This document shows, piece by piece, positions 1 through 55,666 of a stretch of DNA of 64,000 bases. The position numbers and the translations under genes were made by a program. Origin of the DNA: a bacterium (lineage in GTDB: Bacteria > Bacillota > Bacilli > Lactobacillales > Streptococcaceae); assembly GCA_905221095.1 (NCBI GenBank), contig CAJNBV010000001.1, positions 248,001 through 312,000 of the forward strand. Reading direction: 5' to 3'. Position 1 is the first letter of the stretch. Each line of letters opens with the position of its first letter. The notes below the pieces were generated by a model. It searched no databases and was not told the origin of the DNA. It saw only the letters and a list, made by a program, of their open reading frames with translations.

Positions 1-336
1 TAACTTCTCCAATTGTTTATTCAAAGAGCTCGCTTGTAAACCTTCTTGTCCACTTGATAACGAAATAATGACATCTCCAGCATTTACCATATCTCCTTCT
101 GACTTATGTAAAGTAACTACCTTCCCTGAACTAATTGCTGATAGGAACTCTGTACCTGTTATAACTGAATTCCCATTCGCTTTTACAATATAGTTTTTGG
201 GTATATAAGCTGCGCCAATCAATGCACCGCTTAAGACAATAGCAGTTGAAATAATGAGAATAAACGCAAAAGCTGGTGGTCTCTTATCAAAGAAAATACG
301 AGAATAACGCAATTCTGATTTGTTATATAATTTCAT
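1..336 (-). CDS. HlyD-type peptide-export accessory protein (3' end outside window)
   Basis: The first 112 codons of a minus-strand gene that runs off the left edge. The ATG at 336-334 overlaps the TGA of the preceding gene (ATGA), so the two are translationally coupled. The protein starts with a short polar stretch (about 22 residues), then one hydrophobic segment (about residues 23-45), then a beta-rich part resembling the biotinyl-lipoyl-like region of membrane fusion proteins (SGKVVTLHKSEGDMVNAGD, about residues 70-88). This is the layout of HlyD/ComB/LcnD-type accessory proteins, which work with peptidase-containing ABC transporters to export double-glycine peptides. The PCAT gene two genes upstream supports that role. 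The C-terminal two thirds, and any exported peptide genes, lie outside the window. Confidence 0.8.
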   Translation of the reverse strand, partial: MKLYNKSELRYSRIFFDKRPPAFAFILIISTAIVLSGALIGAAYIPKNYIVKANGNSVITGTEFLSAISSGKVVTLHKSEGDMVNAGDVIISLSSGQEGLQASSLNKQLEKL

Positions 337-800
337 AGGCTTACAATAGGTCTAAAAATATCTACTACCATTTTTTCAGGAGAAGAATTAACATAAACTG
401 TATAGACAATCCCGTCCGTTTGAATATCATTTTCATAGACATATAGGTCCAATTTAGAATACGCATACTGCAGATACTCAGGGCTATCTTCAAAACGAAC
501 ATATAAACAATATGGAACAGAGATGGAATCTTGTACATCATAAATGTTACTGTACTGTTGAGCATTATGAGCTTGAATATAAAACTCAAAATCAGTCGTT
601 ATTAATCCATCATCATGAATAGTAGTACCACAACTTTTTACAATTAATGGACCAAAAATTTGTGCTTTTAACAACTGCAAATGTTGATAAAACTTTTCAA
701 TCTCTTGATTTATATTTTCTACTTTTATATCATACAACTTTTTACAGATAACTGACTTTAGTACTAGTTTTTTATTGTCTTGAATCTCTAGTTTAGCCAT
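333..800 (-). CDS. Small GyrI-like/effector-binding-like protein of the PCAT operon
   Basis: Predicted 155-aa soluble protein. I chose the ATG at 800 over the one at 818 because a good ribosome site (AGGAGG) lies 5-6 bases before it. The start overlaps the end of the PCAT gene by 8 bp and the stop overlaps the HlyD gene by 4 bp, so it is the middle gene of a tight three-gene operon. The N-terminal ~50 residues look helical; the rest is beta-rich (GPLIVKSCGTTIHDDGLI, then a repeat-like YLYVRFE/YTVYVNSS half). This loosely resembles GyrI-like effector-binding domains and the streptococcal DUF5085 type, a recollection rather than a search result. No catalytic motif is visible. A role in immunity, substrate binding or transporter regulation is possible but unsupported. 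Confidence 0.7.
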   Translation of the reverse strand: MAKLEIQDNKKLVLKSVICKKLYDIKVENINQEIEKFYQHLQLLKAQIFGPLIVKSCGTTIHDDGLITTDFEFYIQAHNAQQYSNIYDVQDSISVPYCLYVRFEDSPEYLQYAYSKLDLYVYENDIQTDGIVYTVYVNSSPEKMVVDIFRPIVSL

Positions 801-3012
801 AAGTAACCTCCTCTGCATCTAACATAACCGACGGTTCTACTTGTTGCTTCATATAAAAACTCTGTAACTCGACCATTCTAGCATATTTTCCATTTTTAGC
901 CATTAATTCCTCATGAGTCCCATATTCTACAATGGAACCATTCTCCAAAAAACATATCTTATCACATCGAAGAATTGTAGACAGCCTGTGGGCTACTACA
1001 ATTGTTGTCTTATCTATTATTTTATTAAAGATTAAATCCTGAATAATCTGTTCACTAAATGAATCTAAGTTAGAGGTTGCCTCATCAAATATATACAAGT
1101 CAGCTTTACTCAGTAGTGCTCTTGCAATAGCCAATCGTTGTTTCTCTCCACCCGAGAAATTTTGACCGCCTTCTTCTACGAAGGAGCCATAACGATTTTG
1201 AAGGCGTTGAATCGTATCATGAATACCAACAATACGACAAACTCTCACCATATCCTCATATGTGACAGAAGGATTACCAATTTTTAGATTATCAATAATT
1301 GTCCCTGTAAAAAGTTCTATGGTCTGAGGAATGTAGGAAATTTTCTTACGTAATTTACCATAGTCAAGGTCTGATAAGTCATTTGCTCCTATACAAATTT
1401 TCCCATCACTAGGATTTATAAATCGTAATAATAAACGAACTATCGTACTTTTTCCTGCTCCACTTTCTCCAACAAAAGCTATTTTTTCTCCTTGTTTAAT
1501 TCGCAAATTAAAGTTCTTGATAACAGGTGGGCGCGAACCATAGGCAAATGTTACATCTTTAAACTCAATATCATCACACAAGGTAAAGTCTCTAATACTA
1601 TAATCCAAGGCAATGTCTTCACGATCTACTTCCATCAATTCTTGAAGCCGACTAACCGCAACCTGTACCTCTTGAAAGGTTAACTGCAAGCCAACTAGAT
1701 TCTGAATAGGTTCTGTAAAATATTGACTTAATGTCTGAAAAACCAAGAGGTCCCCAATAGTCATTTTTCCATCAATGATAAATAAGGCGCCCACTCCCAT
1801 AAATAATAACCCACCCATGGTTGAGGTCATTGAAGATATTGTAGATTGAATATTCTGCAAAACACCCTCTTTATAACCAATTTCTAAAGTATGAACAAAT
1901 TTTTCTTCAATTTTGTTTAAACGTTGTTCCTCGTCATGCTGAGACTTAATGGTATCAATGTTACGAATAGATTCAATTAACTGTGAATTAAGAAGTCCAT
2001 TTGCTTCCATTTGTTCATGATTAATTTTTTTATAAGGCTTTTTAAAACAGTATATAAGAATGATGTTAACAATAACCATAAAAACTAATATCAGAAATAA
2101 AGATTGATTAATAGTCCAAAGGACAACCGCACTAATAACTGACAAGGTGATATCCATGACTAATGAAATAGAGACTGACGTAAACACATTCTTTATCGTC
2201 ATCGCATCTTGAAATCTTGTTAAAACATCACCAACTCTACGACTTCCAAAAAAACTATAAGGAAGATGAATAATATGGTCATAATACCCCATTAAAACCG
2301 GTATATCAATTTTTCGAGATAGAAACAAAAGAACGTGCTGACGAAATGCAGATAGAAGAGTCTGTAAGAACGACACTATTCCAAATACTATCAAAAACAT
2401 ATACAGACTATTTTTTAAAGCATATGGAATCACCTCGTCCATGATAACTTTTGAAAAGAGACTCGATAAAATACCAATGATACTTAAAACAAAGGAAGCT
2501 AATATGACTGTACTAATCAAGCCTTTTTGATTAAAAATTAACCTTCCAAATAAATCAAGAAGTCCTTTTCCCTTTAGTTTCCCTCTTTCAAAATCCGAAT
2601 TTGGAACCATAAAAAGAGTAATACCTTGATAAATTTCTCCCAATTCGTCACTGGACATCTTGCGTATGCCACTAGCAGGGTCTGCTACGTAGAATTTACT
2701 ATTCCTTTTGATACTATGTAGTACCACAAAATGATTTTGACCTAAATCATTCTTAACTTGAAGAATCGCAGGAAATGTTAATTTTGGAGTCAAATCTTCC
2801 AGTGCTACTCGAACAGCTTTTACTGTAAAATTCAACTTATTCAGACCTGAAACAATACCACTGACAGTCGTTCCATACATGTCTGTACCAATAATTTCCC
2901 GAATCTTCATGATTGATAGTTCCTTTTTGTAAGATAAAAGAACTGTTGAAACAACTGCCGCAGCACAATCTGACTGATCATGTTGCATCGTACAAGGATA
3001 TTTTTTTAACAT
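793..3012 (-). CDS. Peptidase-containing ABC transporter (C39 PCAT) for double-glycine peptides
   Basis: 739 aa from the ATG at 3012; a TTG at 3024 is an alternative start. The N-terminal C39 cysteine protease domain has the catalytic Cys16 (QSDCAAA), His94 (QNHFVVLH) and Asp111 (ADPASG). Six membrane segments follow (about residues 155-440). The C-terminal nucleotide-binding domain carries Walker A GESGAGKST, Q-loop, signature FSGGEKQR, Walker B LYIFDEAT and H-loop AHRLST, all intact. The family cleaves leaders after a Gly-Gly motif and exports the mature peptide (bacteriocins or pheromones, as ComA, BlpA and RtgA do). It is the first gene of an operon with the GyrI-like and HlyD genes. Upstream is a promoter-like element shared with the DUF2712 operon near 15.3 kb, which suggests Rgg control. 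It could be an RtgA relative; the cargo genes are not in the window. Confidence 0.95.
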   Translation of the reverse strand: MLKKYPCTMQHDQSDCAAAVVSTVLLSYKKELSIMKIREIIGTDMYGTTVSGIVSGLNKLNFTVKAVRVALEDLTPKLTFPAILQVKNDLGQNHFVVLHSIKRNSKFYVADPASGIRKMSSDELGEIYQGITLFMVPNSDFERGKLKGKGLLDLFGRLIFNQKGLISTVILASFVLSIIGILSSLFSKVIMDEVIPYALKNSLYMFLIVFGIVSFLQTLLSAFRQHVLLFLSRKIDIPVLMGYYDHIIHLPYSFFGSRRVGDVLTRFQDAMTIKNVFTSVSISLVMDITLSVISAVVLWTINQSLFLILVFMVIVNIILIYCFKKPYKKINHEQMEANGLLNSQLIESIRNIDTIKSQHDEEQRLNKIEEKFVHTLEIGYKEGVLQNIQSTISSMTSTMGGLLFMGVGALFIIDGKMTIGDLLVFQTLSQYFTEPIQNLVGLQLTFQEVQVAVSRLQELMEVDREDIALDYSIRDFTLCDDIEFKDVTFAYGSRPPVIKNFNLRIKQGEKIAFVGESGAGKSTIVRLLLRFINPSDGKICIGANDLSDLDYGKLRKKISYIPQTIELFTGTIIDNLKIGNPSVTYEDMVRVCRIVGIHDTIQRLQNRYGSFVEEGGQNFSGGEKQRLAIARALLSKADLYIFDEATSNLDSFSEQIIQDLIFNKIIDKTTIVVAHRLSTILRCDKICFLENGSIVEYGTHEELMAKNGKYARMVELQSFYMKQQVEPSVMLDAEEVTYG

Positions 3013-3143
3013 AGAAATACTCAATTCTTTAGAATTAATCTAACTTTTATACCATATATGCTAAATAGCTACAATATTAAGCATTTTTGAATCATGCATA
3101 TTATGATATCTGTTACGGTGATATGATTTATAAAAGGTTAATT

Positions 3144-3250
3144 TTTATAATTAATTCAAATTTATCGAATAACTACTTTAAAAACGATATTAGCATTCAC
3201 AGAAAATCTTATGTAATCACTAGATAGCTCATTGGACTCCCCTTCCTTCT
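3144..3250 (-). promoter_or_regulatory. Shared promoter-like element, copy 1 (upstream of PCAT operon)
   Basis: About 104 bp that match 15283-15387 at close to nine bases in ten by eye, including an unbroken identical core of nearly 30 bp (about 3194-3222). Read on the minus strand it ends in a -10-like TATAAA (3149-3144), with no good -35 at 17 bp, as expected of an activator-dependent promoter. It is preceded by GGAAGGGGAGTCC and a 7-codon ORF (3232-3209, MSYLVIT). Transcription from it would give a leader of ~125 nt before the PCAT start. Inference: a binding region for the same Rgg-family activator at both sites. Confidence 0.6.
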
Positions 3251-3282
3251 ATCTCATTTCATTTTAAACAACGAACTTACTC

Positions 3283-3426
3283 TTAACTGGGAGAATAGTA
3301 CGCTCCTGTATCAATACCTCGAGTAACTAGAGTAGTACTAATAAAACTTCGACTATTACTCAGTAGAATTAGCACAATAAGCAATATGGATAGCGCTTTC
3401 AAATATTCGAATTTTAATTTTCCCAT
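3283..3426 (-). CDS. 47-aa hydrophobic secreted or membrane peptide
   Basis: ATG at 3426, TAA at 3285-3283, ribosome site GAAGGTGA about 5 bases before the start. The peptide has a basic start (MGKLKFEYLK), a hydrophobic stretch (ALSILLIVLILL), SNSRS resembling a cleavage zone, and a polar tail ending RGIDTGAYYSPS. There is no double-glycine leader, so it is unlikely to be a PCAT substrate. It sits between a PlcR-like regulator (upstream, same strand) and the PCAT operon, and has its own consensus promoter. Export by Sec followed by processing, as in Phr/PapR-type pheromones read by PlcR/TprA-type regulators, is plausible. The tail does not obviously match any mature peptide I remember. A small membrane protein is the alternative. 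Confidence 0.65.
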   Translation of the reverse strand: MGKLKFEYLKALSILLIVLILLSNSRSFISTTLVTRGIDTGAYYSPS

Positions 3427-3448
3427 CTTGTCACCTTCTTTCACCTAT

Positions 3449-3477
3449 ATTATAAATTAGCACATATAAACTGTCAA
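3449..3477 (-). promoter_or_regulatory. Consensus promoter of the 47-aa peptide gene
   Basis: On the minus strand TTGACA (3477-3472) and TATAAT (3454-3449) are separated by exactly 17 bp, a perfect sigma-70/SigA consensus. The start codon follows only 22 bp after the -10, leaving a very short leader. A promoter this good would be strongly active unless repressed, which fits a repressor such as the neighbouring PlcR-like protein. Confidence 0.85.
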
Positions 3478-3596
3478 GTAATCAAAGTAAAAAATCATAT
3501 ATTTTTATAAAAAAGAATTATAGTTATGTCTTGTGTATGAAGAGGATAATCAAAAACTCAATTTCAGGATAAAATGAAGTAAATATCCCCATAATA

Positions 3597-3645
3597 AAAC
3601 GCATAGTATCAGTTTTTTCAAAACCTGATATTATGCGTTTCTTTA
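3597..3645 (-). terminator. Terminator of the PlcR-like regulator gene
   Basis: Inverted arms around 3597-3612 and 3625-3640 (AAACGCATA...TATGCGTTT) form a long stem. On the minus strand it is followed by TTTTATT. It closes the gene at 3684-4541 and separates it from the peptide promoter. The same arm sequence recurs in the terminator at 19721-19770. Confidence 0.75.
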
Positions 3646-3683
3646 TTTTAAAGACTTTTTTCCCAGCCTCATACATTCTCTGA

Positions 3684-4541
3684 CTACTTATCCATCAGAT
3701 ATTGTTCTACCTTGAGTGCCATGACTTCATTATTTTCAATTAGATAAAGCACCTTAGATTTCATATAATAGTCCTTAGCAACAGAGATATCAAGATCCTC
3801 TGTTACATTTCCCAACAAACAATATAAATCTGCTAGCCTAAAGCTACTATGATATTTGTTACAAAATTCAATCATCTCCAATAATAGCGCTCTGGACTTG
3901 TCCATCTCCTCCTGTTTCCAAAGGTGGTAACAATAATTGTATTTTATTTTGATATACAACTCAATTTGTTCACGCACACTGGTATCGATTTTTGAAAGAG
4001 CTACGGAAACCTGTTCATATAGTTGTTCAAATTTCTCCTTATCCTCATCATAGCCTAAGAAAATCAGCAGGGTATTCAAAATATATAAGTAGTCCACTTT
4101 ATCAATACTAATCCTACTGAGGATGTCCTCTATTTTTGAAATAGCTAGTTTTAATTGATGTTCGCATTGATAGGTTAGAATGGCATCTATCCAGTCCAGA
4201 TAAATCTTTTCATCAAAAGATAAGGATGTCTGTTGCTTTCTTTCTCCCTCAAAAGCATATTTCAAAGAGGCGTAATCTTGATTTTCCAATAATGTTTCAG
4301 ACAATCTCTTGAAAGCAGACAAGCCTAGAAACTCTTTCGAAATTTCTCCTGAAAAGAAATAGTCCATATTTAAGCCCATTTTTTCAGATAATTTATATAA
4401 CAAATCTGCTCCTGGCATATATTTACCTTGTTCCATGCGACTTATCTGAGTTTGTTGGCAAATTCCTTCTGCCAATTCTTTTTGCGACCAGCCCAGCTCT
4501 TTTCGCTTATTTTTTAATCTTGTTGCTAATAATGCATGCAT
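3684..4541 (-). CDS. PlcR/TprA-like transcriptional regulator (HTH plus TPR, RRNPP type)
   Basis: 285 aa from the ATG at 4541, which has a GGTGGA ribosome site 4 bases upstream; GTG codons at 4553 and 4550 are alternatives. The N-terminal XRE-type helix-turn-helix covers about residues 5-60 (LGWSQKELAEGICQQTQISR). The remainder is helical with TPR-like pairs, and the length matches PlcR and TprA (about 285-290 aa). Proteins of this type bind short imported peptides that switch promoter binding on or off. Downstream on the same strand is the 47-aa peptide gene and then the PCAT operon, a natural regulator-signal-exporter order. In known TprA/PhrA pairs the peptide gene is convergent, so this arrangement differs. 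The ligand is unknown. Confidence 0.85.
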   Translation of the reverse strand: MHALLATRLKNKRKELGWSQKELAEGICQQTQISRMEQGKYMPGADLLYKLSEKMGLNMDYFFSGEISKEFLGLSAFKRLSETLLENQDYASLKYAFEGERKQQTSLSFDEKIYLDWIDAILTYQCEHQLKLAISKIEDILSRISIDKVDYLYILNTLLIFLGYDEDKEKFEQLYEQVSVALSKIDTSVREQIELYIKIKYNYCYHLWKQEEMDKSRALLLEMIEFCNKYHSSFRLADLYCLLGNVTEDLDISVAKDYYMKSKVLYLIENNEVMALKVEQYLMDK

Positions 4542-4642
4542 GCTATCCACCACTATTTATATTCTATAAAAACATTATACTACTTTTTTGAGAAGATTAT
4601 ATCAAATTGGCTACACAGTGTGAACAGGCTTCTAAAAAGAAA

Positions 4643-4668: not shown

Positions 4669-4760
4669 TATTTCTTAATACCAACCGTTGCTAAGCCAGA
4701 AGCTTTTAGCTCTGCCAAGCCACATGGTGTGCTTACTACTATGTGTCCATGTCACCATGA
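4669..4760 (-). pseudogene. Remnant of the 3' end of a LysM/transglycosylase-like gene
   Basis: Read on the minus strand, the bases before the TAA at 4676-4674 encode RAKSFWLSNGWY. The intact gene at 16592-17212 ends AAKNFWLNNGWY, and the following bases (TAAGAAATA) also match. Further upstream a second patch (GGCGATTCATGG near 4755) matches the FGDSW/YGSW region, but with an intervening insertion and no open frame. There is no start codon or LysM part. It is a scar of a former paralogue or of recombination, lying between the PCAT island and argH. Confidence 0.7.
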
Positions 4761-4861
4761 ATCGCCGAACGATTTAACAAGAAAGTATGACTTTTACGTT
4801 TATCTCAACTCAATTATGACATCTTTTTCAAAAGTCAATATATCTCACTCTTTTCAACGAC

Positions 4862-8559: not shown

Positions 8560-9201
8560 TCATTTTCCCTTGCCCAATTCAATGATACGATGACATTGTT
8601 GGGCTACATAAGCATCATGGGTCACAATAATGACTGTTTTCCCCTCTCGATTCATCTCTAAGAGAAACTTCAAGACCAAATCTCTATTTTCAGAGTCCAG
8701 CGAACCTGTCGGTTCATCTGCTAAAATCAGCTGGCTAGGTTTTAAGATGGCTCTAGCAACTGCAATTCGTTGTTGCTCCCCACCAGACAATTCGGAGACC
8801 TTTTGATGCAACGTAGATGACAAACCTACTCTCTCTAAAATCTCTTCCACCTTTTTGAGCTTGTCTTTCTTGGACAATTTCACATATTTCAGTGCCAGCA
8901 TGAGATTGTACTCGACCGTTTCATCATCAATCAGGGCAAAATTTTGAAACAGATAAGAGATATGTTCACGGATTATTGTTTGTGACTTGGCAGAATTAAC
9001 CGCTAGATTTGTCTGACCAAAAATCTCATACCGTCCGCTATAATCACCATCTATCAAACCTAATAAATTTAACAAGGTCGACTTACCACTACCACTTTTT
9101 CCAACGATGGCAACCAAATCTCCCTGATCAATCCTGAGAGATAAGTTATCCAAAATCACTTTTCCCCCAATGGTTTTGGTAATATTTTTCAACTCAATCA
9201 T
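8560..9201 (-). CDS. ABC transporter ATPase, lactococcin-972-type bacteriocin export
   Basis: 213-aa ATPase with Walker A GKSGSGKST, Q-loop FQNF, signature LSGGEQQR, Walker B LILADEPTGSLDS and H-loop THD. It is of the MacB/LolD size and type. It overlaps the membrane-protein gene upstream by 4 bp. The pair of a short ATPase and a ~700-aa integral membrane protein (the DUF1430 bacteriocin-associated type) is the arrangement of lactococcin-972-type exporters or immunity systems in streptococci. No recognisable lactococcin 972-like precursor is encoded next to it, so its cargo is uncertain. Confidence 0.9.
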   Translation of the reverse strand: MIELKNITKTIGGKVILDNLSLRIDQGDLVAIVGKSGSGKSTLLNLLGLIDGDYSGRYEIFGQTNLAVNSAKSQTIIREHISYLFQNFALIDDETVEYNLMLALKYVKLSKKDKLKKVEEILERVGLSSTLHQKVSELSGGEQQRIAVARAILKPSQLILADEPTGSLDSENRDLVLKFLLEMNREGKTVIIVTHDAYVAQQCHRIIELGKGK

Positions 9202-11306
9202 AAGATGCCCCCTTTCAATAACTCTACTAGACTTCTTTTCTCCATCTTAGAAGCCAAGGCTAGCACAAATAGTATATCCAAACATGTAAAACCTGCAAAC
9301 AGTAGAAGTGGCAGGAGCGCATGGGCAAAGAAAATCAAGACTAGAAGAGGCAGACTATAGCCCAGCAAGAGCAGAACTAGAAGAGGGCGATAGCGATCGA
9401 CCAGTTTCCACCCCATAAACTTCTTGGTAATGATATCCCTGCGCTTCAACAAGAAAGTGGTAACGAGTAAAAAGTAGGAGACAATCATACTGAGAAGAGC
9501 AAATAAGGCAAACAGAACGTTAAAATTACGAACAGAATCCCGATAGGTATCAACCATCCCCTCTTGAATTGCTTGAATCGATGAAAATTTTAAATAGCTA
9601 CCATCAGATAATTTCTCAACTAACTCCGTAATCACTTTTTGATTTTGTTCTGTATTTTCAACTTTCATCGGGTTGTTTAAACCTGTCGTTGACAAGTGAG
9701 TCTTTTCTTCCCACATCATGTCTTGATCATTTACCAGACTAATGATTGGATTGTGGAGATTTTCCTTTCGCTCATTATTATAAGGGAAGAAAGACCAATC
9801 TCCTTCATAGTAGGCAATTTCTACATCCATATCTTCTATCCTTTGCTTTTGCTGATCTTCATACCTCATAGAAAGATAGGCAATGGATTTTCCCAAGAAC
9901 TGATTCTTGCCTTCTTGTCCTTTGTCACTGGCTGGCAACAAAATCACCTTTTTAGTGCCGGTATCTGGTAACTTGAATCCCTTGCTCTTTAGAAAATTGC
10001 TATTAGCATAGTAAACATCTACCTTATCCGGCAGTTGGTAGTTCTGCACTTGTTCAGCTTTGATGACTGGTTTGATAGGAAGACTCGTACTTCGCACATA
10101 GTTTACTTGTGTTTTTGCTAGCAAATCTTGATAAAATTGGTAGAAATAATCTGTAGATTTCCCTGAACCTGCTAGCTCTTCTTGCCACAGGTTATCATTG
10201 AGTTTGAAGGTTTCCAAGGTCAGGTAATTTCCTTGGCTTACCCACTGTTGCTGATAAGCAAGTTCTTTGTTTTCTTGTTCTAGACTTCTGCCTACCCCAA
10301 TCAGTAAAACCGTCAATAAAACAGTTGTCCCTATTTTCATCACATAATTGAAGATGAGACCAAGTTTGACAGATGAAAAACCTTTCAACATGGAACTGAC
10401 TGTCATTTTCTGAATCATCAGGTAGGTCAGCCAACTGATGAACAAATACAACTGTAAAAGCAGAAATTGGGATAAGAGTAAACTTGGAAACAAAAGTTTT
10501 GGTCTGTAGTCCAGCACTAAAAATAGTCCCAAGTCAATGATAAGACTTCCACCCAAGAGAAGATAAAAATTAGTCTTTACAAAACCAGCTAAAATCGCCC
10601 TACTTTGAAAACCAAGTAACTTTTGAACCCCCACTCGTTTCATCTCCATCATCGGCTGATAAACTGTCATTAAAATCACAAGCAAGATTGCCAAGATAAA
10701 GATAATGATAGATAGTAACAAAGCTTGATTTAGCACTCCAACCTGACTTCGGTAAGTGGGTTCTAATAAAATCGTCTTATCTATCTGGAAAAAATCACTC
10801 CACTTTTGTAGAATGGTATCGCGATCTATCTCTTTGCTGGAGGTAATCATGTAGCGTCCATTTACAGTATGGGATTTATCCTCAATATAGGATTGGAAGG
10901 TCTGGAGTCGAATATGTTTCACCTTTAAAAAGGTGGGAATGGTTCCTAGATTATTGGGAAGGTCCTGGTTGCTGTAGACTCCCTTCTCATTCTTTGAAAA
11001 ATCAAGAGAAGTCAGACCGAACTCCTGATAGGGGAAGGTTTCCTTATCAAAAACACCAGCCTTGACGGCCTCATCGCCATTATCTACTTTGATAATAGAG
11101 ACCTTGTCTTGACTTGCAACCTCTTCAAAAAACTGGAGAATAGTTTCTGTCGGTTTAGTGACATCTTTCAAGTACAAGTCAAATGAATAAGTTGTCTTGC
11201 CCATCTCCTGAATCCGCACTATTTCTCGTGTAACATTTACATTCAGGACAAAAAACGTAGTACACAGCAAGAGCAGGAGCATACAAAGATGACTGATTTT
11301 TTTCAT
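9198..11306 (-). CDS. Bacteriocin-associated integral membrane protein (DUF1430 type)
   Basis: 702 aa from the ATG at 11306, which has a GGGAGGT ribosome site; the frame is open 60 bp further but without one. It has an N-terminal membrane segment (residues 5-25), a long extracytoplasmic domain, three or four membrane segments near residues 210-340, a second extracytoplasmic domain, and a C-terminal FtsX-like membrane bundle. This is the double-module layout of bacteriocin-associated membrane proteins and MacB-like permeases. It is coupled to the ATPase gene through a 4-bp overlap (ATGA). It forms the permease half of a putative peptide exporter or immunity pump. A terminator-like hairpin lies between it and the gene upstream. 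Confidence 0.88.
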   Translation of the reverse strand: MKKISHLCMLLLLLCTTFFVLNVNVTREIVRIQEMGKTTYSFDLYLKDVTKPTETILQFFEEVASQDKVSIIKVDNGDEAVKAGVFDKETFPYQEFGLTSLDFSKNEKGVYSNQDLPNNLGTIPTFLKVKHIRLQTFQSYIEDKSHTVNGRYMITSSKEIDRDTILQKWSDFFQIDKTILLEPTYRSQVGVLNQALLLSIIIFILAILLVILMTVYQPMMEMKRVGVQKLLGFQSRAILAGFVKTNFYLLLGGSLIIDLGLFLVLDYRPKLLFPSLLLSQFLLLQLYLFISWLTYLMIQKMTVSSMLKGFSSVKLGLIFNYVMKIGTTVLLTVLLIGVGRSLEQENKELAYQQQWVSQGNYLTLETFKLNDNLWQEELAGSGKSTDYFYQFYQDLLAKTQVNYVRSTSLPIKPVIKAEQVQNYQLPDKVDVYYANSNFLKSKGFKLPDTGTKKVILLPASDKGQEGKNQFLGKSIAYLSMRYEDQQKQRIEDMDVEIAYYEGDWSFFPYNNERKENLHNPIISLVNDQDMMWEEKTHLSTTGLNNPMKVENTEQNQKVITELVEKLSDGSYLKFSSIQAIQEGMVDTYRDSVRNFNVLFALFALLSMIVSYFLLVTTFLLKRRDIITKKFMGWKLVDRYRPLLVLLLLGYSLPLLVLIFFAHALLPLLLFAGFTCLDILFVLALASKMEKRSLVELLKGGIL

Positions 11307-11357
11307 AGAGATACCTCCCGTGAAGAGACGAAACTGGGAAAAACTAACTTTCCAATA

Positions 11358-11418
11358 AAACCACACAGTGATTCTCTCAGTTTAATTGTGTTCAAGGCTG
11401 AAAACACTGTGTGGTTTT
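11358..11418 (-). terminator. Terminator or attenuator hairpin before the DUF1430 gene
   Basis: AACCACACAGTG (about 11359-11370) pairs with CACTGTGTGGTT (about 11405-11416), a 12-bp stem with a ~34-nt loop and T-rich flanks on both sides. It lies between the 195-aa protein gene and the exporter pair. It may reduce read-through rather than end transcription, because no separate good promoter for the exporter was seen. Confidence 0.6.
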
Positions 11419-12043: not shown

Positions 12044-12088
12044 CACTTAACCTCCTGATTCACGACTCCGCCTAAAGCAGAGTCCTAT

Positions 12089-12202
12089 TTATTTTGAAAA
12101 TAGTTCCATAACAACTTTAAATAAGACGGGTGTCATCAAAATGAGGATGATTCCTATCACAAATATCATGACTACTCGAAAAAGTTCCTTATTTTTAAAC
12201 AT
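12089..12202 (-). CDS. 37-aa hydrophobic peptide, possible orphan SHP-like pheromone or toxin
   Basis: ATG at 12202, TAA at 12091-12089, with GGGGTGG as ribosome site. The peptide has a charged start (MFKNKELFR), a long hydrophobic core (VVMIFVIGIILILM), a proline, and the tail VLFKVVMELFSK. It stands divergent from the rgg remnant at 12366, just as the 28-aa W-x-W peptide stands divergent from the intact rgg (163 versus 183 bp between starts). The two peptides also share a basic, FR-containing start. It may therefore be a former Rgg partner whose regulator has decayed, or the small pore-forming/immunity peptide of the downstream module. It is too short for standard gene finders. Confidence 0.6.
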   Translation of the reverse strand: MFKNKELFRVVMIFVIGIILILMTPVLFKVVMELFSK

Positions 12203-12267
12203 TTTTCCACCCCTTTTCTAGCGACATCATAGTACTCGTTAACCCCGTCTTAAAATTACACCAAGCT

Positions 12268-12392
12268 TATTTTAGTTTTCTTTTCTACTTTTTATATTAC
12301 TATGATACACTATTTTTAATAGGATTTTATTATTTGTTAACTTTTTTCACGAAAAGGAGAAAATCATGCGTTATGATTTCGGGAAAGTATAT
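12268..12392. repeat. Direct repeat A: rgg promoter region and first codons
   Basis: 125 bp that match 15579-15703 almost base for base and with no gap, covering the promoter, ribosome site (AAAAGGAGA) and first nine codons of an rgg gene. Copies A and B bracket the 12.4-15.6 kb module. This is the pattern expected of a tandem duplication, or of a cassette gained by homologous recombination. Confidence 0.8.
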
Positions 12393-12395
12393 TGA
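12366..12395 (+). pseudogene. Truncated rgg remnant
   Basis: ATG at 12366 is preceded by the same ribosome site as the intact rgg and encodes MRYDFGKVY, then TGA. The intact protein begins MRYDFGKIY. After this the similarity is lost within a few bases, and the end of the ABC ATPase gene (minus strand) begins at 12429. It is the 5' stub of a second rgg gene. Confidence 0.75.
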
Positions 12396-12428
12396 AAAAA
12401 CTATAATAAAGTTAGCCAGCTACCATTA

Positions 12429-13076
12429 CTAAAAGTTAGATGTCTTAACTAATTTACCGTTTTTCAATTCAAGAACAATATCAGATAATACTTCAATATC
12501 CTCTTTATTGTGAGATGTGACCAACATAGTAATATGATTCTTTCGAGCATAATTCTTAATTATTTTTCTTAGTTCTTCTACACCTTCATAGTCCATACTA
12601 TTAAATGGTTCATCTAGGAGTAAAATCTTAGGATTTTCCATCAATGCTTGGGCAATCCCTAATCTTTGTAACATGCCTAATGAATAATTTTTTACTTTTA
12701 CATCTTTATCCTGATATAAATCTACCTTATTCAATACTTCCTCAATCTCTTTCTTAGTAATTTTATTTTTGATTGCAGCTAATTGCTCTAAATTCTCTAA
12801 TGCAGTTAGACTAGGCAAAAATCCCGGATGTTCAATAAGTAACCCTACATCAAGTGGCATAGAACCATTTTCCCCAACAATTACACTCCCAACTGTAATC
12901 TTACCAGTAGTAGGTTTCATTAATCCTGAAAGCATTTTAAATAATACACTTTTCCCGCATCCATTGGTTCCTACAATTCCATATATTTTACCTGATTCAA
13001 AAACATAACTAACATCATCTATAACATACTTTTTCCCAAATATTTTTGAAAGATGATCTACTTTTATACAATTCAT
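12429..13076 (-). CDS. ABC transporter ATPase of the DUF2712 module
   Basis: 215 aa from the ATG at 13076 with AAGGAGTTG as ribosome site. Walker A reads GTNGCGKS followed by V rather than the usual T/S, the signature is YSLGMLQR, Walker B is ILLLDEPF, and the switch histidine is in TSHN. The size and motifs fit the antibiotic/bacteriocin immunity type (BcrA/CcmA-like). It follows two permease genes with a 13-bp gap and is the last gene of the four-gene operon starting at 15149. It probably powers export of, or self-protection against, the secreted DUF2712-like product. Confidence 0.93.
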   Translation of the reverse strand: MNCIKVDHLSKIFGKKYVIDDVSYVFESGKIYGIVGTNGCGKSVLFKMLSGLMKPTTGKITVGSVIVGENGSMPLDVGLLIEHPGFLPSLTALENLEQLAAIKNKITKKEIEEVLNKVDLYQDKDVKVKNYSLGMLQRLGIAQALMENPKILLLDEPFNSMDYEGVEELRKIIKNYARKNHITMLVTSHNKEDIEVLSDIVLELKNGKLVKTSNF

Positions 13077-13089
13077 ACGTTTCAACTCC

Positions 13090-13896
13090 TTACTCATTTT
13101 GATACTGCTTACTTCCTTTAGGTAATGCAATATCTTTATTTTCGAATATTTTAAAATTTAATAGAAGCAACATTGCATCAACAAATACCAATATCCCACA
13201 TCTACCAATGAAATTTATGCCGTAACCATACACTGAACCAGAAATGGAAAACAATGAAAATGCTCTCAGATGTTCTCCTAAAAAGCCCAATGTTGAACCC
13301 GCCATTATAATCAAAATGCCCGTATAGATAACAAATACTAACGATTGTGATATTCTAAACTGTGTTAAAAGTGCATGGAGCAGGGAAAAGAAATATAGCA
13401 ATAATCCTTGTAAAATTATTATCTTTACTATCTCATAAATTACTATATTCGTTTCAAAATTTCCAAATAAATACGTTTCTGAAAATTTTTTTGTGGCTGT
13501 TGAAATGCCAATGCCAAAGTTAGAATCTCCTATTCCTACTATAGTGGAAAATATACAAATACTAACCACATAATAAATCACACTTTTCAAAATTTTAAAA
13601 TGCTTATTTCTATAAAAATCATTTCTACTTGAATACCTACTTAGTACAAAAAATATATTTTGTTCAACTGGGCTTTGTAGCATCATTATGAAAGCTAATA
13701 AAAACGGAAATGTGAAATATCCAGTATAGGAATCATTAAACATGATAAGAATCAGCTCACCAAAATGAAAATTCCCAAATTTATATTTTAATACTATCAG
13801 CTGACTAAAATTTGCTAATATAGCAAAAGCAACTAATAAATATACAAAACCTATATAAAAATCTTCTTTATTTTTTAATTCTTTAAATTTCTTCAT
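13090..13896 (-). CDS. ABC transporter permease subunit, DUF2712 module
   Basis: 268 aa with six predicted membrane segments (the first near residues 14-35, the last near 225-245) and no soluble domain. The start overlaps the end of the next permease gene upstream by 14 bp, so translation is coupled. The gene lies between that permease and the ATPase gene. Codon use is very A/T rich, more so than the neighbouring arginine and serine genes, as is common for acquired bacteriocin cassettes. The two permeases are distinct sequences and probably form a heterodimer. Confidence 0.88.
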   Translation of the reverse strand: MKKFKELKNKEDFYIGFVYLLVAFAILANFSQLIVLKYKFGNFHFGELILIMFNDSYTGYFTFPFLLAFIMMLQSPVEQNIFFVLSRYSSRNDFYRNKHFKILKSVIYYVVSICIFSTIVGIGDSNFGIGISTATKKFSETYLFGNFETNIVIYEIVKIIILQGLLLYFFSLLHALLTQFRISQSLVFVIYTGILIIMAGSTLGFLGEHLRAFSLFSISGSVYGYGINFIGRCGILVFVDAMLLLLNFKIFENKDIALPKGSKQYQNE

Positions 13897-14674
13897 CAGT
13901 TTCTATATCCCTTTTAAATTTTTTATACGATATCCAATATGATGTTACTACTATAAGGATTAAGTATACAAAAACAAATATTACGCTTATTCCTTTTACT
14001 CTTGAAACATCAAAAATTGCCATTGGTTCAATTTTAGTAAGACCTAAAAACATCGCAAACAATGATCCTATTGTCGTTAAAATAAATGGGGATAACCATG
14101 CAACAAATTTGCTCTTAATAAAATATGACATCGCCAATCCAACACTACTATATGCAACGCCAACAAAGGAACAATGTAAAATGATTATTACTACATAAAA
14201 TAACGGGGATGTCTTCACTGCTGATTCATAAATAGAAACTTTTGTTATTGCATAATAAGCATCCATATTTATACTTCTATTAAAAAATAAAATTGACATT
14301 ATCAAGAATAACAACATTCCAAAAATAAATGTTGTAAATGATATGAATCCATTGATTATAAAAATAGAATTAAAATACTGTTTATATCCCATCCTTGATA
14401 CAATATATTTCATTGTTCCACTTTTTCTATTTTCGATATGCTGTGACGCAAAAGGAATTGTTGCAATAAGAGGTGCCAAAACTACTAACAACGACCTATC
14501 ACCATTATAACCTTGTAAAAATGCCACAATATAATCATGATTAAAAAAATACTCCATTCCCTCTTCAATAAATGCACTTACAGAAAATATCATAGAAGTT
14601 AAAATGATTAATATTGCTAAAAAGAATTGCTTATTTTTCATCCCTTTTAAAAACATACTGACCTTGTAATCCAT
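13883..14674 (-). CDS. ABC transporter permease subunit, DUF2712 module
   Basis: 263 aa with about six membrane segments (first near residues 17-35, last near 225-245), resembling ABC-2-type permeases of immunity transporters. The ATG at 14674 follows GGAGAGAAGT. It lies 73 bp after the DUF2712-like gene, with a weak terminator-like hairpin in between, and overlaps the second permease. Substrate unknown. Confidence 0.88.
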   Translation of the reverse strand: MDYKVSMFLKGMKNKQFFLAILIILTSMIFSVSAFIEEGMEYFFNHDYIVAFLQGYNGDRSLLVVLAPLIATIPFASQHIENRKSGTMKYIVSRMGYKQYFNSIFIINGFISFTTFIFGMLLFLIMSILFFNRSINMDAYYAITKVSIYESAVKTSPLFYVVIIILHCSFVGVAYSSVGLAMSYFIKSKFVAWLSPFILTTIGSLFAMFLGLTKIEPMAIFDVSRVKGISVIFVFVYLILIVVTSYWISYKKFKRDIETDEEI

Positions 14675-14696
14675 ACTTCTCTCCTATAAAACAAAT

Positions 14697-14720
14697 GGGA
14701 TGAACGAACATGCTCATCCC
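14697..14720 (-). terminator. Weak terminator or attenuator between the secreted protein and its transporter
   Basis: GGGATGA (14697-14703) pairs with TCATCCC (14714-14720). On the minus strand it is followed by ATTTGTTTT. A leaky stop here would make more of the small secreted protein than of the transporter, a common design in bacteriocin operons. Confidence 0.55.
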
Positions 14721-14747
14721 CAAATATACAAACCTATATTCTAGCTC

Positions 14748-15149
14748 TTAATACTCATCAGGACTCCATGAACCGCTGGTTTGAACTTTAACATATGTTG
14801 CGAACCCTGTCCATCCACCCAATCTAAGATTAGATCCTTCTGCATCTGATGGACTATTATAATTCAAATAAATCCTATCTCCACTGCCTGCAGAATATGT
14901 ATGTGTCATTTGAGCGTCACCTCTAAAAATAGCACAGTGCATTGTATAACCACCACCGATTGATGTATTATTATTTACTCCTCTTGATTGATTTGTTTTA
15001 TATAATGAGTCAGTCACTGTACGACCTCCGAATCTCGGCATAATCATATCGTAGTCCGAAATTTCTCTAGCAGAGACAGCCATTGCACCAATCATTAACG
15101 TAGCACATATACTTGCAAATAACTTTGTTTTAGTATCTAGTTTTTTCAT
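14748..15149 (-). CDS. Secreted DUF2712-like protein, candidate bacteriocin or toxin
   Basis: 133 aa from the ATG at 15149; a GTG 27 bp upstream is possible, but the AAAGGATTGG site favours the ATG. The signal peptide has a basic start (MKKLDTKTK), a hydrophobic core and AVSA as cleavage site (about residue 27), leaving ~106 residues. The mature part is rich in Gly, Ser, Asn and Tyr, contains one Cys, and ends SGSWSPDEY. This looks like the DUF2712 family, small secreted proteins encoded beside ABC transporters; the family name is from memory of its pattern. It is the first gene of an operon with three ABC genes and follows the shared promoter element. A secreted antagonist with a protective pump is the simplest reading; function is unproven. 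Confidence 0.8.
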   Translation of the reverse strand: MKKLDTKTKLFASICATLMIGAMAVSAREISDYDMIMPRFGGRTVTDSLYKTNQSRGVNNNTSIGGGYTMHCAIFRGDAQMTHTYSAGSGDRIYLNYNSPSDAEGSNLRLGGWTGFATYVKVQTSGSWSPDEY

Positions 15150-15181
15150 TATTACAATCCAATCCTTTCGCTCCACTTACG

Positions 15182-15216
15182 ACACAATACAAAATGAAAA
15201 ACATGTTGTATTGTGT
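15182..15216 (-). promoter_or_regulatory. Leader hairpin of the DUF2712 operon
   Basis: ACACAATACAA (15182-15192) and TTGTATTGTGT (15206-15216) form a perfect 11-bp stem with a 13-nt loop inside the ~127-nt leader. No U run follows, so it is not an ordinary terminator. RNA stabilisation or a protein site is possible. Confidence 0.6.
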
Positions 15217-15282
15217 TGTTTTCTTTAATTTGGGATATGATATACTTTCTGTGAAACCAAATATGATAAACTAAAAATCAAA

Positions 15283-15387
15283 ATTATAATGAATTCAAAT
15301 TTATAGAATGACTACCTTAAAATGAAATTAACATTCACAGAAAATCTTATGTAATCACTAAATAATCCATTGGACTCACCTTCCTTT
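15283..15387 (-). promoter_or_regulatory. Shared promoter-like element, copy 2 (upstream of DUF2712 operon)
   Basis: It matches 3144-3250 along ~104 bp with a single 1-base gap. It ends on the minus strand in a perfect TATAAT (15288-15283), with no -35 match at 17 bp. It also carries the GGAAGGTGAGTCC and 7-codon ORF (15370-15347, MDYLVIT) of copy 1. The two copies differ in that codon 2 changes and the Leu codon is CTA versus TTA. It probably binds the Rgg encoded at 15677. Confidence 0.65.
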
Positions 15388-15406
15388 CATTTTTACAACT
15401 AGCGCA

Positions 15407-15493
15407 TTATATCGGCCATTTCCATGGGAAAACCGTAGCAATGCTGAATAAGAAAGCAAGAATAACTAAAAAGCGAAAAACTTTTTTATTCAT
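15407..15493 (-). CDS. 28-aa Rgg-associated pheromone precursor with W-x-W motif
   Basis: ATG at 15493, TAA at 15409-15407, and a very strong GGGAGGAGG ribosome site. It starts MNKKVFRF, has a hydrophobic middle and ends VFPWKWPI. A short hydrophobic peptide gene divergent from an rgg gene (183 bp between starts) is the classic SHP/Rgg layout. A Trp-x-Trp motif near the C terminus is what I recall of the pneumococcal RtgS pheromone, which acts with RtgR and drives a PCAT locus; double-Trp peptides are also known for ComS. The active peptide is probably the C-terminal 6-8 residues, released after export and re-imported by Opp/Ami. Too short for most annotation. Confidence 0.85.
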   Translation of the reverse strand: MNKKVFRFLVILAFLFSIATVFPWKWPI

Positions 15494-15499
15494 ACTTTT

Positions 15500-15560
15500 T
15501 CCCTCCTCCCTGTATTTTGTATCTACAGTATACCTCTTCTTTACTCTATTTTAAAATTAG
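15500..15560 (-). promoter_or_regulatory. Promoter region of the W-x-W peptide gene
   Basis: A TATACT (about 15533-15528) lies about 35 bp before the ATG on the minus strand. The -35 position is poor (TTTAAA-like) and lies in an A/T-rich stretch with GTTAAC and TTTTAAAA symmetry. This fits a promoter that needs Rgg with bound peptide. Confidence 0.5.
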
Positions 15561-15578
15561 TTAACTTTTTTCACACAA

Positions 15579-15703
15579 TATTTTAGTTTTCTTTTTTACT
15601 ATTCCTGTTACTATGATACAATATTTTTAATTGGATTTTATTATTTGTTAACTTTTTTCACAAAAAGGAGAAAATTATGCGTTATGATTTTGGAAAGATC
15701 TAT
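15579..15703. repeat. Direct repeat B: promoter and start of the intact rgg
   Basis: Partner of repeat A (12268-12392), the same length. It contains the ribosome site and first nine codons of the working gene. Confidence 0.8.
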
Positions 15704-16540
15704 AAAGAAATACGTGAGTCAAAAGGCTTGACTCAAGAAGAGGTCTGTGGAAATGTTCTCTCAAGAACTAGCCTATCAAAGATTGAAAGTGGCAAGGCAA
15801 CTCCAAAATATGAAAATATGGAATTTCTTCTCCGTCAAATCAATATGAGTTTTGAAGAGTTTGACTACATCTGCCATCTCTATCAACCGAGCCAACGAAC
15901 AGAAATCATGCAAACTTATCTCAATATGACTTCTATAATTGGTAGTAGTAGTCTAGTTCATTTTTTTGAAACATGCCAAGACTATCTCAAAACCCACTAC
16001 GACCTGCCTATAGAAGAAATCAGGGATATGCTGGAAATTGTCATTCATATCCGTCGACATGGTACAGAGCAACTGTCAGACCAAGTAAAACAGACTATCA
16101 AAAAACTTTGGGAAAAAATTGAAAAACAAGATACATGGTATGAAAATGATCTAAAAATCCTCAATACCATCCTTTTCAGCTTTCCTATTGAACACCTCCA
16201 TCTCATCACTGAAAAAATATTGCAACGCTTGGAAGTCTATAAAAACTATCAACATCTATATGAACTGCGAGTAGCAATCCTACTCAACCTTTCCACCATT
16301 TACTTATACAATCAAGACAAAAACATGTGCCAACAAATCTGCTATACTTTACTAGAGGACGCTAAGAACAAGAAAAGCTACGATAGACTTGCTGTCTGCT
16401 ATGTCCGTATCGGGATTTGTACGGATGACGCTAGACTTATTCAAAAAGGTTTCTCACTTCTGGAGATCACCGAGGAAACCTCCATGCTGTCTCATCTCAA
16501 AAAAGAAGTGGAGACCTATTATCAACCGAAAGAAATATAA
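15677..16540 (+). CDS. Rgg/MutR-family peptide-responsive regulator (RtgR-like)
   Basis: 287 aa with an N-terminal XRE-type helix-turn-helix (about residues 7-62: IYKEIRESKGLTQEEV, then RTSLSKIESGKATP) and a C-terminal all-helical repeat domain, the normal Rgg build and length. The ATG at 15677 follows AAAAGGAGAAAAT. It is divergent from the W-x-W peptide gene, its likely ligand. Expected targets are the peptide promoter and the two copies of the shared element (3144-3250 and 15283-15387), which would link the DUF2712 operon and the PCAT operon to one signal. RtgR is the closest concept I know; orthology was not tested. Confidence 0.92.
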   Translation: MRYDFGKIYKEIRESKGLTQEEVCGNVLSRTSLSKIESGKATPKYENMEFLLRQINMSFEEFDYICHLYQPSQRTEIMQTYLNMTSIIGSSSLVHFFETCQDYLKTHYDLPIEEIRDMLEIVIHIRRHGTEQLSDQVKQTIKKLWEKIEKQDTWYENDLKILNTILFSFPIEHLHLITEKILQRLEVYKNYQHLYELRVAILLNLSTIYLYNQDKNMCQQICYTLLEDAKNKKSYDRLAVCYVRIGICTDDARLIQKGFSLLEITEETSMLSHLKKEVETYYQPKEI

Positions 16541-43565: not shown

Positions 43566-46500
43566 TTAAGCTTCTTCGTCTTCTTTACGACGACGACCTG
43601 CAAGACCAAGACCAAGTAATGCACTTGCGGCAGCTGCTACCATAGCTACAGTAGAATCTGCTGTACCTGTATTTGGCAATTCTTTAGCTGCTTTACGCGT
43701 ATTTGCTGCTTCTTGGCTAGCATTAGCTGCTGCTTGAGTTGTAGCTGGAGCTACAGCTGGTGTTTGAGCAGCTTGGTCGTTAGCTGGAGTTGCATGATCA
43801 GTTGCTGGAGCAACTTTCGCCATGAAGTCTTCGATACGTTTAACCATTGCATCCACTTCTGCTTGACTTGCATCTGCATTAGCAAATACTTTCTTAGCGT
43901 CTGCTAATAAGTCATTCGCTTCTTTTGCAGTTTCTGCATCAAGCTTAGCTGATTCTTTAATGATCAATTCATCTAATTGATGGATAGCACCTTCTAACTT
44001 AGCTTTATCCACTTTTGCACCAGTGTTATTAGCTGCGTTATTGCCAGAAGTTCCGTTACCGTTACCACTGTTATTGCCTCCACCATTTGATGGTACATAT
44101 GGACGTTGTTTAAATGCGTCATCTCTTGGAATTGCTAATACTTGACCTTCTTTTGTAACGATTGTTACATTTCCGGCTTTATCAATGTTAATAGCTAATT
44201 CTTTCTTACCATCTTTTTCGACTGTTGCATTACCATCTTTGTCGATTGTAATTTTCACTTTAGAATCTTTAGATGTGTAAATTGTGTTTCCATTTTCATC
44301 TGTAGATTTAATGTAAGCATCTAAATCGAATTCTTCTACATTTGTGATAGCACCTAGAACTTTGAATTGGAATTTCGCTTTTTCTTCTGGAGTAATATTT
44401 TCAAGGTCTGCTACCTCTACTTTACTCAAGTCGATATCAAGATTATCTCCACCGTGTTTAGATTTAGAAACAGCTTCTTTATCTTTCACTAGTTGTTCTT
44501 TAGAAATTGTTGCTGTAGAACCGTCTGGCATTGTTACTGTTGCGTTTCCTTTATCGTCTACTACTACAGTTGCGCCTGGGTTAACTGCTTCAATTGATTT
44601 CTTAACAGCATCTTTTTCAGCATCTGTTAAGTTTTCTTTATCTCCAACTAATGTACGGATAGCTGGTGTTTTCACTTTAGCATTTGTTGCTTCGTCAGCA
44701 AATTTTTCTGCTGGGATGACTAAGTCTGAAGCTGGGATGTTAAGAACTGTTCCATCAGCTTTCGTTACTGTTGTGTTTCCTTTATCGTCTACCACTACAG
44801 TTGAACCTGGGTTGACTGCTTTCACTTTATCTTCGACTGCTTTCTTCTCAGCATCGTTAAGTTCAGCTAGATTTTCTACGACAGTCTTAGCTGCTGGTGT
44901 GTTTGCATCGTTACCACCATTAGGTTTTGTAGCATCGCCTTCGACTTTAACTAAGTCTGTTGATGGGATAACTGAAACATTACCATCCTTCACTACAGTT
45001 GCATTTCCTTTATCGTCTACTACAACTTCAGCGCCTGGATTTGCTGCTTTAACTTTGTCTTCGATTGCTTTCTTCTCAGCGTCAGTTAAGGCATTTGGAT
45101 TTGCTACTTTTGTTTTCGCTGCTGGTGTAACTGCGTTGTCTTTAGCTTTTCCATCGTTCACATCTTTTTCAGATTTTGTTAAATCTGATGCAGGGATAAC
45201 TGCTGTCTTACCGTTTGGAAGTGTGACTGTAGCGTTTCCTTTGTCGTCTACTGCTACAGTTGAACCTGGGTTGACTGCTTGAACTTTAGCTGCAATTGCA
45301 TCTTTCTCATCTTGTGTTAATGAATCTGGATTTGCTACTTTTGTCTTAGAAGCTGGTTTAACAATGTCGTTTCCTGCTTTTGGTGCTTTTTCTGCATCTG
45401 CTGACTTAGTTAAGTCTACCGCTGGAATGACCGCTGTCTTACCTTCTGGTGTTGTTACTGTTACGTTTCCTTTGTCGTCCACTACAACTTCAGCATCTGG
45501 ATTTACTGCTTTCACTTTATCCGCGATTGCTTTCTTCTCATCATCAGTAAGTTTAGCCGGATCTTTCACCACAGTCTTATCGGCTGGTGTAACGATGTCG
45601 TTTCCTGCCTTCGGCTCTTTAGTTTGTGCTTCTGTCTTAGTTAAGTCTGATGCTGGGATTACAACTGGTTTACCATCTTTAGGTGTTACTGTTGCATTTC
45701 CTTTATCATCTACTACAACTTTAGCTTCTGGATTTAAGGCTGCAAGCTTGTCTGTGATTGCTTTCTTCTCTTCATCAGTAAGTTTAGCTGGATCTTTCAC
45801 TAAAGTCTTATCTGCTGGTTTAACTACGTTGTTACCTGCATTTGGTTTAGCTGCATCTTCCGCTGTTTTCACTAAATCAGCTGCTGGAATGATTGCTGTC
45901 TTACCTTCTGGTGTTGTGACTGTTGCGTTTCCTTCGTCGTCCACTACAACTTCAGCACCTGGGTTGACTGCTTTCACTTTATCAGCGATTTCTTTCTTAG
46001 ATTTTTCTAAGTTAGTTGGATCTAAGACTGTCTTATCTGCTGGTGTGTTTACATCGTTTCCTGCATTTGGTTTAGCTGCATCTGCTTCTGTCTTCGTTAA
46101 GTCTGCCGCTGGAATTACAACTGGTTTACCATCTTTAGGTGTTACTGTTGCATTTCCTTTGTCATCTACTACTACAGTTGCATCTGGATTTAAGGCTGTA
46201 AGCTTATCTGTGATGGCTTGTTTTTCTTCATCAGTTAATGAAGTTGGATCTTTCACTACAGTCTTATCTGCTGGTTTAACTACGTCGTTTCCTGCTTTTG
46301 GCTTAGCTGCATCTTCTTTTGATTTCGTTAAGTCTGCTGCTGGAATGACTGCTGTCTTACCTTCTGGTGTTGTGACTGTTGCGCTTCCTTTATCGTCTAC
46401 TGCTACAGTTGCACCAGGGTTAACTGCTTCTACTTTAGCCGCAATTGCTTTCTTCTCTTCTGGAGTTAGAGCATTTGGATTTGCTACCGCAGTCTTGTCA

Positions 46501-55619: not shown

Positions 55620-55666
55620 TAATTTAGGATCTCCTTTTTGAAATATATTTTGGATTTTCACGCGAA

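Follow-up and report, generated by a model that had tools for sequence, protein, structure and literature searches.

The 64,000-nt stretch of DNA analysed here (the window; GenBank assembly GCA_905221095.1, contig CAJNBV010000001.1, positions 248,001 to 312,000 of the forward strand) belongs to a streptococcus of the mitis group and carries an intact rgg regulator gene, a divergent gene for a short pheromone-like peptide ending in FPWKWPI and, behind the latter, a gene for a secreted 133-aa protein followed by three ATP-binding cassette (ABC) transporter genes. All of these lie where the first-pass annotation, made from the letters of the sequence, had placed them; the module that it began at 12366 is real, but this position is itself the start codon (ATG) of a resident rgg cut short after nine codons. 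We interpret the locus as a quorum-sensing head of the RtgR/RtgS (RtgRS) type joined to a swappable competition cassette, a reading to which we give a probability of roughly two in three. The features of the locus are the following.

15677..16540, plus strand: rgg, intact, encoding an RtgR-clade regulator of 287 aa (HTH_3 and Rgg_C above the Pfam cut-off; 85% identical to the Rgg of locus L054)
15647..15661, no strand assigned: rgg-proximal copy of the operator-like motif GTTAACTTTTTTCAC, which precedes 54 of 55 Rgg copies without mismatch
15560..15574, no strand assigned: distal copy of the operator-like motif, 87 bp from the proximal one and upstream of a promoter-like TTTAAA-17-TATACT; it tracks with the peptide
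15407..15493, minus strand: rtgS-like pheromone precursor gene, 28 aa, MNKKVFRFLVILAFLFSIATVFPWKWPI, ending ATVFPWKWPI; open reading frame (ORF) behind AGGGAGGAGGG, divergent from rgg
15364..15388, minus strand: extended anti-16S (Shine-Dalgarno-like) element GAAAGGAAGGTGAGTCCAATGGATT, -22.1 kcal/mol with the 16S tail
15347..15370, minus strand: mini-ORF MDYLVIT, starting 36 nt past the peptide stop; the sister mini-ORF MDYDTC is rio97 of strain D39
14748..15149, minus strand: secreted 133-aa DUF2712-related protein with a signal-peptide-like start, predicted to be a jelly-roll beta sandwich
14697..14720, minus strand: hairpin between the secreted gene and the first permease gene, a terminator-like match and possible attenuator
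13883..14674, minus strand: membrane protein, likely ABC permease (hydrophobic, beside an ATPase gene)
13090..13896, minus strand: second membrane protein, likely ABC permease on the same grounds
12429..13076, minus strand: ABC ATPase (ABC_tran, E 3.1e-31)
12268..12399, plus strand: truncated resident rgg, of which the promoter and the nine initial codons remain; it includes a third motif copy (12336-12350) and is 87% identical to 15579-15710

Regulator, pheromone gene and promoter motifs

The assignment of the circuit to the RtgRS type is well supported by homology. The Rgg of locus L054 faces a peptide ending AIIFPWGWPI, which is the RtgS type A decapeptide (PMC13361665), so that the window Rgg, given its 85% identity to this protein, is an RtgR-clade paralogue, and the pairing suggested in the first-pass annotation holds. 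The L054 peptide shares its last 13 residues with rio9 of D39, which is known as the signal of Rgg0112 (PMC9426450). Like the RtgR/RtgS system of S. pneumoniae (Rgg0112, rtg locus; PMC7018657), the window unit combines its Rgg with a divergent 28-aa FPWxWPI precursor, a putative pair of promoters and an adjoining antagonist-type cargo; it differs in its position at the lysM site, in having K and not G as the variable residue, and in its cargo, since the peptidase-containing ABC transporter (PCAT) and double-glycine (GG) peptides of the rtg locus are not found behind the FPWKWPI pheromone gene, where the DUF2712-type secreted protein and ABC genes lie instead.

The precursor has the properties of W-x-W pheromones: it is small, divergent from rgg, ends in W-x-W and lacks the Asp/Glu typical of short hydrophobic peptides. 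The window contains 1564 start-to-stop ORFs of 18-45 aa when each alternative start is counted; ten of them have W.W or WW within their last 14 residues, and an FPWxW end occurs only at 15407-15493. The gene looks coding, with a leader under purifying selection, because pN/pS in codons 1-18 is 0.15 (nine MNKKVFR-type sequences, which are related and were compared as pooled pairs). In the same nine sequences the last ten codons contain almost only replacement changes (pN 0.053, pS 0.002); over all 12 sequence types this excess is less clear (pN/pS 0.49). In pneumococcus, RtgS peptides C8, C10 and C12 induce through RtgR (PMC7018657). The window peptide would be exported, matured and re-imported, and would then bind the divergent Rgg; the mature pheromone is probably formed by the last 8-10 residues. 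Pheromone induction in circuits of the RtgRS type depends on PptAB and Ami.

The 15-bp motif GTTAACTTTTTTCAC occurs in three exact copies in the window, one in the promoter of the stump and two between rgg and the peptide gene, and shuffled controls contain on average 0.37 matches at up to two mismatches. When 55 Rgg copies are compared (72 minus 17 duplicates), the distal motif, at up to one mismatch, is present in 18 of the 22 copies with a peptide and in 3 of the 33 without (P 4.8e-8 by Fisher's test, with no correction for relatedness). RtgS is reported to be expressed in pneumococcus from two promoters of almost the same sequence, and its induction to require an inverted repeat (PMC7018657); the window motif is probably the same as this repeat. 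Rgg bound at the two sites would activate the peptide promoter, and the cargo would be reached by read-through. A fourth match with one mismatch (47127-47141) falls within the reading frame of a large surface protein and is probably due to chance.

The cargo, the peptide gene and rgg form a unit that, by sequence comparison, sits beside the stump of a resident rgg. Over 346 nt, the 354-nt stretch around this stump (12047-12400) matches loci with a complete solo rgg at identities of up to 95%, and the unit is therefore read as an incoming accessory cassette. One scan of genome contigs provided 39 rgg loci, and 20 further genome regions were added. Within the 39 loci, rgg is directly followed by lysM and a serine dehydratase gene in 30; a gene or unit intervenes between rgg and lysM in five, rgg lies on the argH side in two, and lysM was not found in the remaining two. 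A 37-aa hydrophobic ORF near the stump (12089-12202) might belong to a resident unit under Rgg control; in many relatives it lies in divergent orientation to rgg copies that have no peptide.

Exchange of cargo behind the pheromone gene

The genes found behind the Rgg/FPWxW head differ from one genome to another. The 26 peptide loci compared (39 hits minus three without a start, L064, L128 and L142, and minus ten near-duplicates) carry lactococcin 972 in ten cases, a pair of 74/61-aa proteins or pieces of it in four, a DUF2712-type module in three (the window, L043 and L127), an EntV-like protein in two, a PCAT or GG peptides in two (L054, L137), secreted 104- or 109-aa proteins in two distant systems (L080, L085) and a 56-aa protein in one; no recognised cargo was seen in the last two, which are one locus seen twice. 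Searches of the Pfam and NCBIfam libraries confirmed lactococcin 972 (E 1.9e-21 with PF09683, and 1.8e-25) and returned the EntV-like match at E 1.2e-15 (57.9 bits, against a curated cut-off of 130); five other cargo proteins gave no convincing match in these libraries. Mapped on a tree of 52 Rggs (the 55 copies without three short or broken ones), ten cargo labels require 19 changes, where 9 would be the fewest possible and shuffled labels need 24.0 on average. At the level of sequence, these heads carry exchanged cargoes across genomes. The window itself retains lactococcin-type genes at 8560-11366, namely an immunity protein (TIGR01654) and an ABC ATPase (TIGR03608), with no lactococcin gene among the ORFs listed beside them.

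The first-pass annotation had labelled the secreted protein DUF2712, a name that survives only in the form "DUF2712-related": PF10916 is present in the precomputed annotation of 4 of the 83 relatives retrieved by profile search at E<=0.001 (their names include Streptococcus, Helcococcus and the Bacillus cereus group), and a DUF2712 match occurs in 1 of 16 and 1 of 70 aligned relatives (best E 5.9e-4), but the window protein itself matches no Pfam model, PF10916 included, even when E values up to 10 are allowed. The lactococcin 972 models PF09683 and TIGR01653 do not match it either. Matches to the protein occur in 9 of 284 Streptococcus genomes, near-identical in G206 and G141, broken in G032 and at 39-47% identity in the other six; G141 and G217 each have two copies of the gene. 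Eight distant copies are accompanied by an ATPase and three membrane-protein ORFs, not all of which are intact in L148 and L150.

Among the ABC genes, the ATPase ORF is listed as 12429-13130 from a TTG, with a likely ATG at 13076. Its best NCBIfam match is TIGR03740 (lantibiotic protection), with 178 bits, below the cut-off of 309.75; the first permease (13883-14674) has no family at E 0.1 in NCBIfam and none above cut-off in Pfam, and the second (13090-13896) has no Pfam match. The set resembles LanFEG-type transporters in this nearest ATPase family and in having an ATPase and two membrane proteins beside a secreted product; it departs from them in the sub-threshold ATPase score and in permeases that match no family. 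The hairpin behind the secreted gene is found in all seven folded loci, at -18.8 to -27.2 kcal/mol over 80 nt, a set that includes two pairs of near-copies and has no shuffle control. Since this hairpin separates the two parts, we propose that the secreted protein would be made in excess of the three-gene transporter.

The window cargo likely functions as an antagonist, because recognised bacteriocins (lactococcin 972, EntV-like) occupy the slot behind the same head. The secreted protein would then act on neighbouring cells and the transporter would protect the producer. The first-pass annotation had proposed a secreted antagonist and its pump; the former agrees with the bacteriocins found in this slot, but for the ABC genes we favour a self-protection set over an exporter of the 133-aa protein, since the latter begins with a signal-peptide-like segment (a Sec-type signal of its own) and would not need a dedicated exporter, and since the ATPase comes closest to those of lantibiotic protection. 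Alternatively, the DUF2712-type protein could be a surface or sugar-binding factor, with ABC genes that export something else or answer envelope stress. A second structure model (pLDDT, the predicted local distance difference test score, 88.6) shows a jelly-roll sandwich whose fold matches are generic and include carbohydrate-binding modules and GOLD domains, and the distant modules stand alone, as this alternative would have it; the recognised bacteriocin families in the same slot, and the bacteriocin-like layout of a small Sec-type protein, a hairpin and then ABC genes, make it improbable, at about one chance in four.

Several observations weigh against a quorum-sensing head coupled to a competition cassette. 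An FPWxW peptide was not detected beside 30 of the 52 Rggs; the distal motif is absent in 4 of the 22 peptide loci and present in 3 of the 33 peptide-less ones; the variable residue of the peptide does not track the Rgg, that is, no co-variation is seen. DUF2712 is a family without known function, no W-x-W peptide was seen in the ORF lists beside the eight distant DUF2712-type modules, and, among the peptide loci, L054 and L137 (both of rtg type) have lost the anti-16S element and L032 and L125 have a weak form of it. The frequent absence of the peptide would also suit a decaying circuit, with a peptide inactive in this strain and a cassette either silent or driven from outside. For instance, both rgg copies of G198 are reduced to residues 177-286, with a lactococcin 972 unit and the element still in place and no detected peptide, and the secreted gene is broken in L071/G032. 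In the window, however, the Rgg is intact, two exact motif copies and strong ribosome sites are present, and the leader is under purifying selection, so that decay is the least probable of the alternatives considered here and quite unlikely.

The RtgRS-type head with its swappable cargo recalls the streptococcin (lactococcin 972-type) operons and bacteriocin hotspots, where cargo also switches beside conserved quorum-sensing regulators (PMC6120550, PMC11796350), as described for pneumococcus beside TprA and Rgg (PMC6120550); lactococcin 972 genes, as in the streptococcin operons, fill the slot in relatives of the window. How pneumococcal streptococcins A, C and D are controlled has been called unclear (PMC11796350), and the ten loci with lactococcin 972-type genes directly behind an RtgS-like pheromone point to a regulator that can be tested for such genes in relatives.

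A joint shared by two unrelated heads

The new part of this analysis is the joint between pheromone gene and cargo, together with the exchange of heads and cargoes around it. Directly 3' of the peptide stop lies GAAAGGAAGGTGAGTCCAATGGAY, which as a 24-mer with up to three mismatches has 27 matches in 24 of the 284 Streptococcus genomes (reversed control, 0). Fifteen of these follow a W-x-W peptide, one a truncated W-x-W peptide (L190), seven a 47-aa peptide of PlcR type and four no detected peptide. Lactococcin 972 is found behind both the Rgg/W-x-W and the unrelated PlcR-like heads. The window contains one head of each kind, the second comprising the following features.

3684..4544, minus strand: PlcR-like regulator gene (HTH_3 above cut-off, RNPP_C below cut-off)
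3283..3426, minus strand: 47-aa peptide ending GIDTGAYYSPS
3209..3232, minus strand: second copy of the joint, with mini-ORF MSYLVIT behind GAAGGAAGGGGAGTCCA, 50 nt past the 47-aa peptide gene (-16.3 kcal/mol)
793..3012, minus strand: C39 peptidase ABC transporter, an rtgA-like PCAT, 99% identical to the L054 PCAT that follows RtgS type A

The rtgA-like PCAT of the window is thus not a neighbour of its RtgR-like Rgg and sits behind the PlcR-like regulator and the 47-aa peptide. A GyrI-like gene (333-800) is also 99% identical to its L054 counterpart behind RtgS, and from these comparisons the head appears to have been exchanged in front of the PCAT (333-4553).

Pairing of the element was computed with the 16S tail present in G198. 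At -22.1 kcal/mol it is stronger than at any of 27 gene starts of the window (-17.0 at best), and none of 3000 random 25-mers reaches it (lowest, -21.5 kcal/mol). When the best 18-mer in a set stretch past the peptide stop is taken, 19 of the 23 distinct peptide loci have a pairing energy no higher than -17.7 kcal/mol, among them L080 and L085 with Rggs of just 44-45% identity; by the same measure, 3 of 600 randomly chosen places and none of 547 long-ORF ends reach this value. GTCCAATG, and hence the start of the mini-ORF, is present in 16 of these 23 loci and missing in seven. The mini-ORF has 2-10 codons and a variable sequence, from MD to MDYKVYCFIY. STAB-SD elements are mRNA stabilisers of Bacillus, in which a ribosome-binding stretch lengthens mRNA half-life. 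The window element resembles them in pairing strongly with 16S rRNA at a place within a transcript that is not the start of the main gene; it differs in lying between pheromone gene and cargo and in usually opening a mini-ORF.

One form of the mini-ORF, MDYDTC, is identical to rio97, a small ORF (sORF) of pneumococcal strain D39 with a table value of 425, which is among six sORFs picked for the highest start-codon read counts; it is listed and tagged in the available part of that report and given no function there, and strong bands were obtained from five of ten tagged sORF constructs, the report not stating whether rio97 is one of them (PMC9426450). In the Rgg1518/SHP1518 system, a translated 7-aa sORF, rio83, starts 42-43 nt past a W-x-W pheromone gene in front of an ABC operon (with rio84), and its authors suggest that it is a negative regulator (PMC9426450). 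The pheromone and mini-ORF sequences of that system differ from those of the window, and its ribosome site is weaker (-12.5 kcal/mol).

The joint may be an mRNA stabiliser or translational valve, a repressive leader or a mere seam. A repressive leader is suggested by the position of rio83; the variable sequence and length of the mini-ORF and the loss of its GTCCAATG start in seven loci speak against this role, which we hold to be unlikely. A scar of past recombination with no part in expression, doubtful to a similar degree, would explain why homology between cargo types stops within the mini-ORF and why each of the four tandem cargo units of antagonist-type genes at locus L046 (G274 C2:178338-182556) is opened by the element. 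However, anti-16S pairing is kept in L080 and L085 despite their divergent Rggs, and in L034, L056 and L143 although the start codon is missing, and rio97 is translated in D39 with a high start-codon read count (PMC9426450). For the RtgRS-type head with its cassette, we suppose that the extended ribosome-binding element, which usually opens a mini-ORF, would load or stabilise the cargo mRNA and would also mark the seam of cargo exchange. The window unit has this joint, in contrast to the rtg-type loci L054 and L137.

A broader and more tentative proposal, to which we give somewhat less than even odds, is that antagonist genes of the mitis group work as plug and socket: interchangeable heads (Rgg/FPWxW, PlcR-like/GAYYSP) and cargoes would meet at one conserved joint, the extended anti-16S element with its translated mini-ORF, serving as a generic valve on translation or mRNA stability and visible in pneumococcus as rio97. 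If so, a newly acquired cargo would come under quorum control at once. Cluster switching has been proposed to give new bacteriocins access to an existing quorum-sensing network, with verification pending (PMC6120550); a joint and a cargo common to two unrelated heads make this idea concrete. The available parts of PMC6120550 and PMC11796350 do not describe a W-x-W head at this site, a shared joint or the sharing of cargo between Rgg and PlcR-like heads. The link to the joint also turns rio97 from an orphan ribosome-profiling signal into a hypothesis testable by removal of its start codon.

Elsewhere in the window, a very long ORF at 43566-55661 encodes a repetitive LPXTG-type surface protein of 4031 aa, and a Bacilli-1 small RNA (RF02931, 86.6 bits) lies at 4698-4762 on the minus strand, just upstream of the start of the PlcR-like gene.

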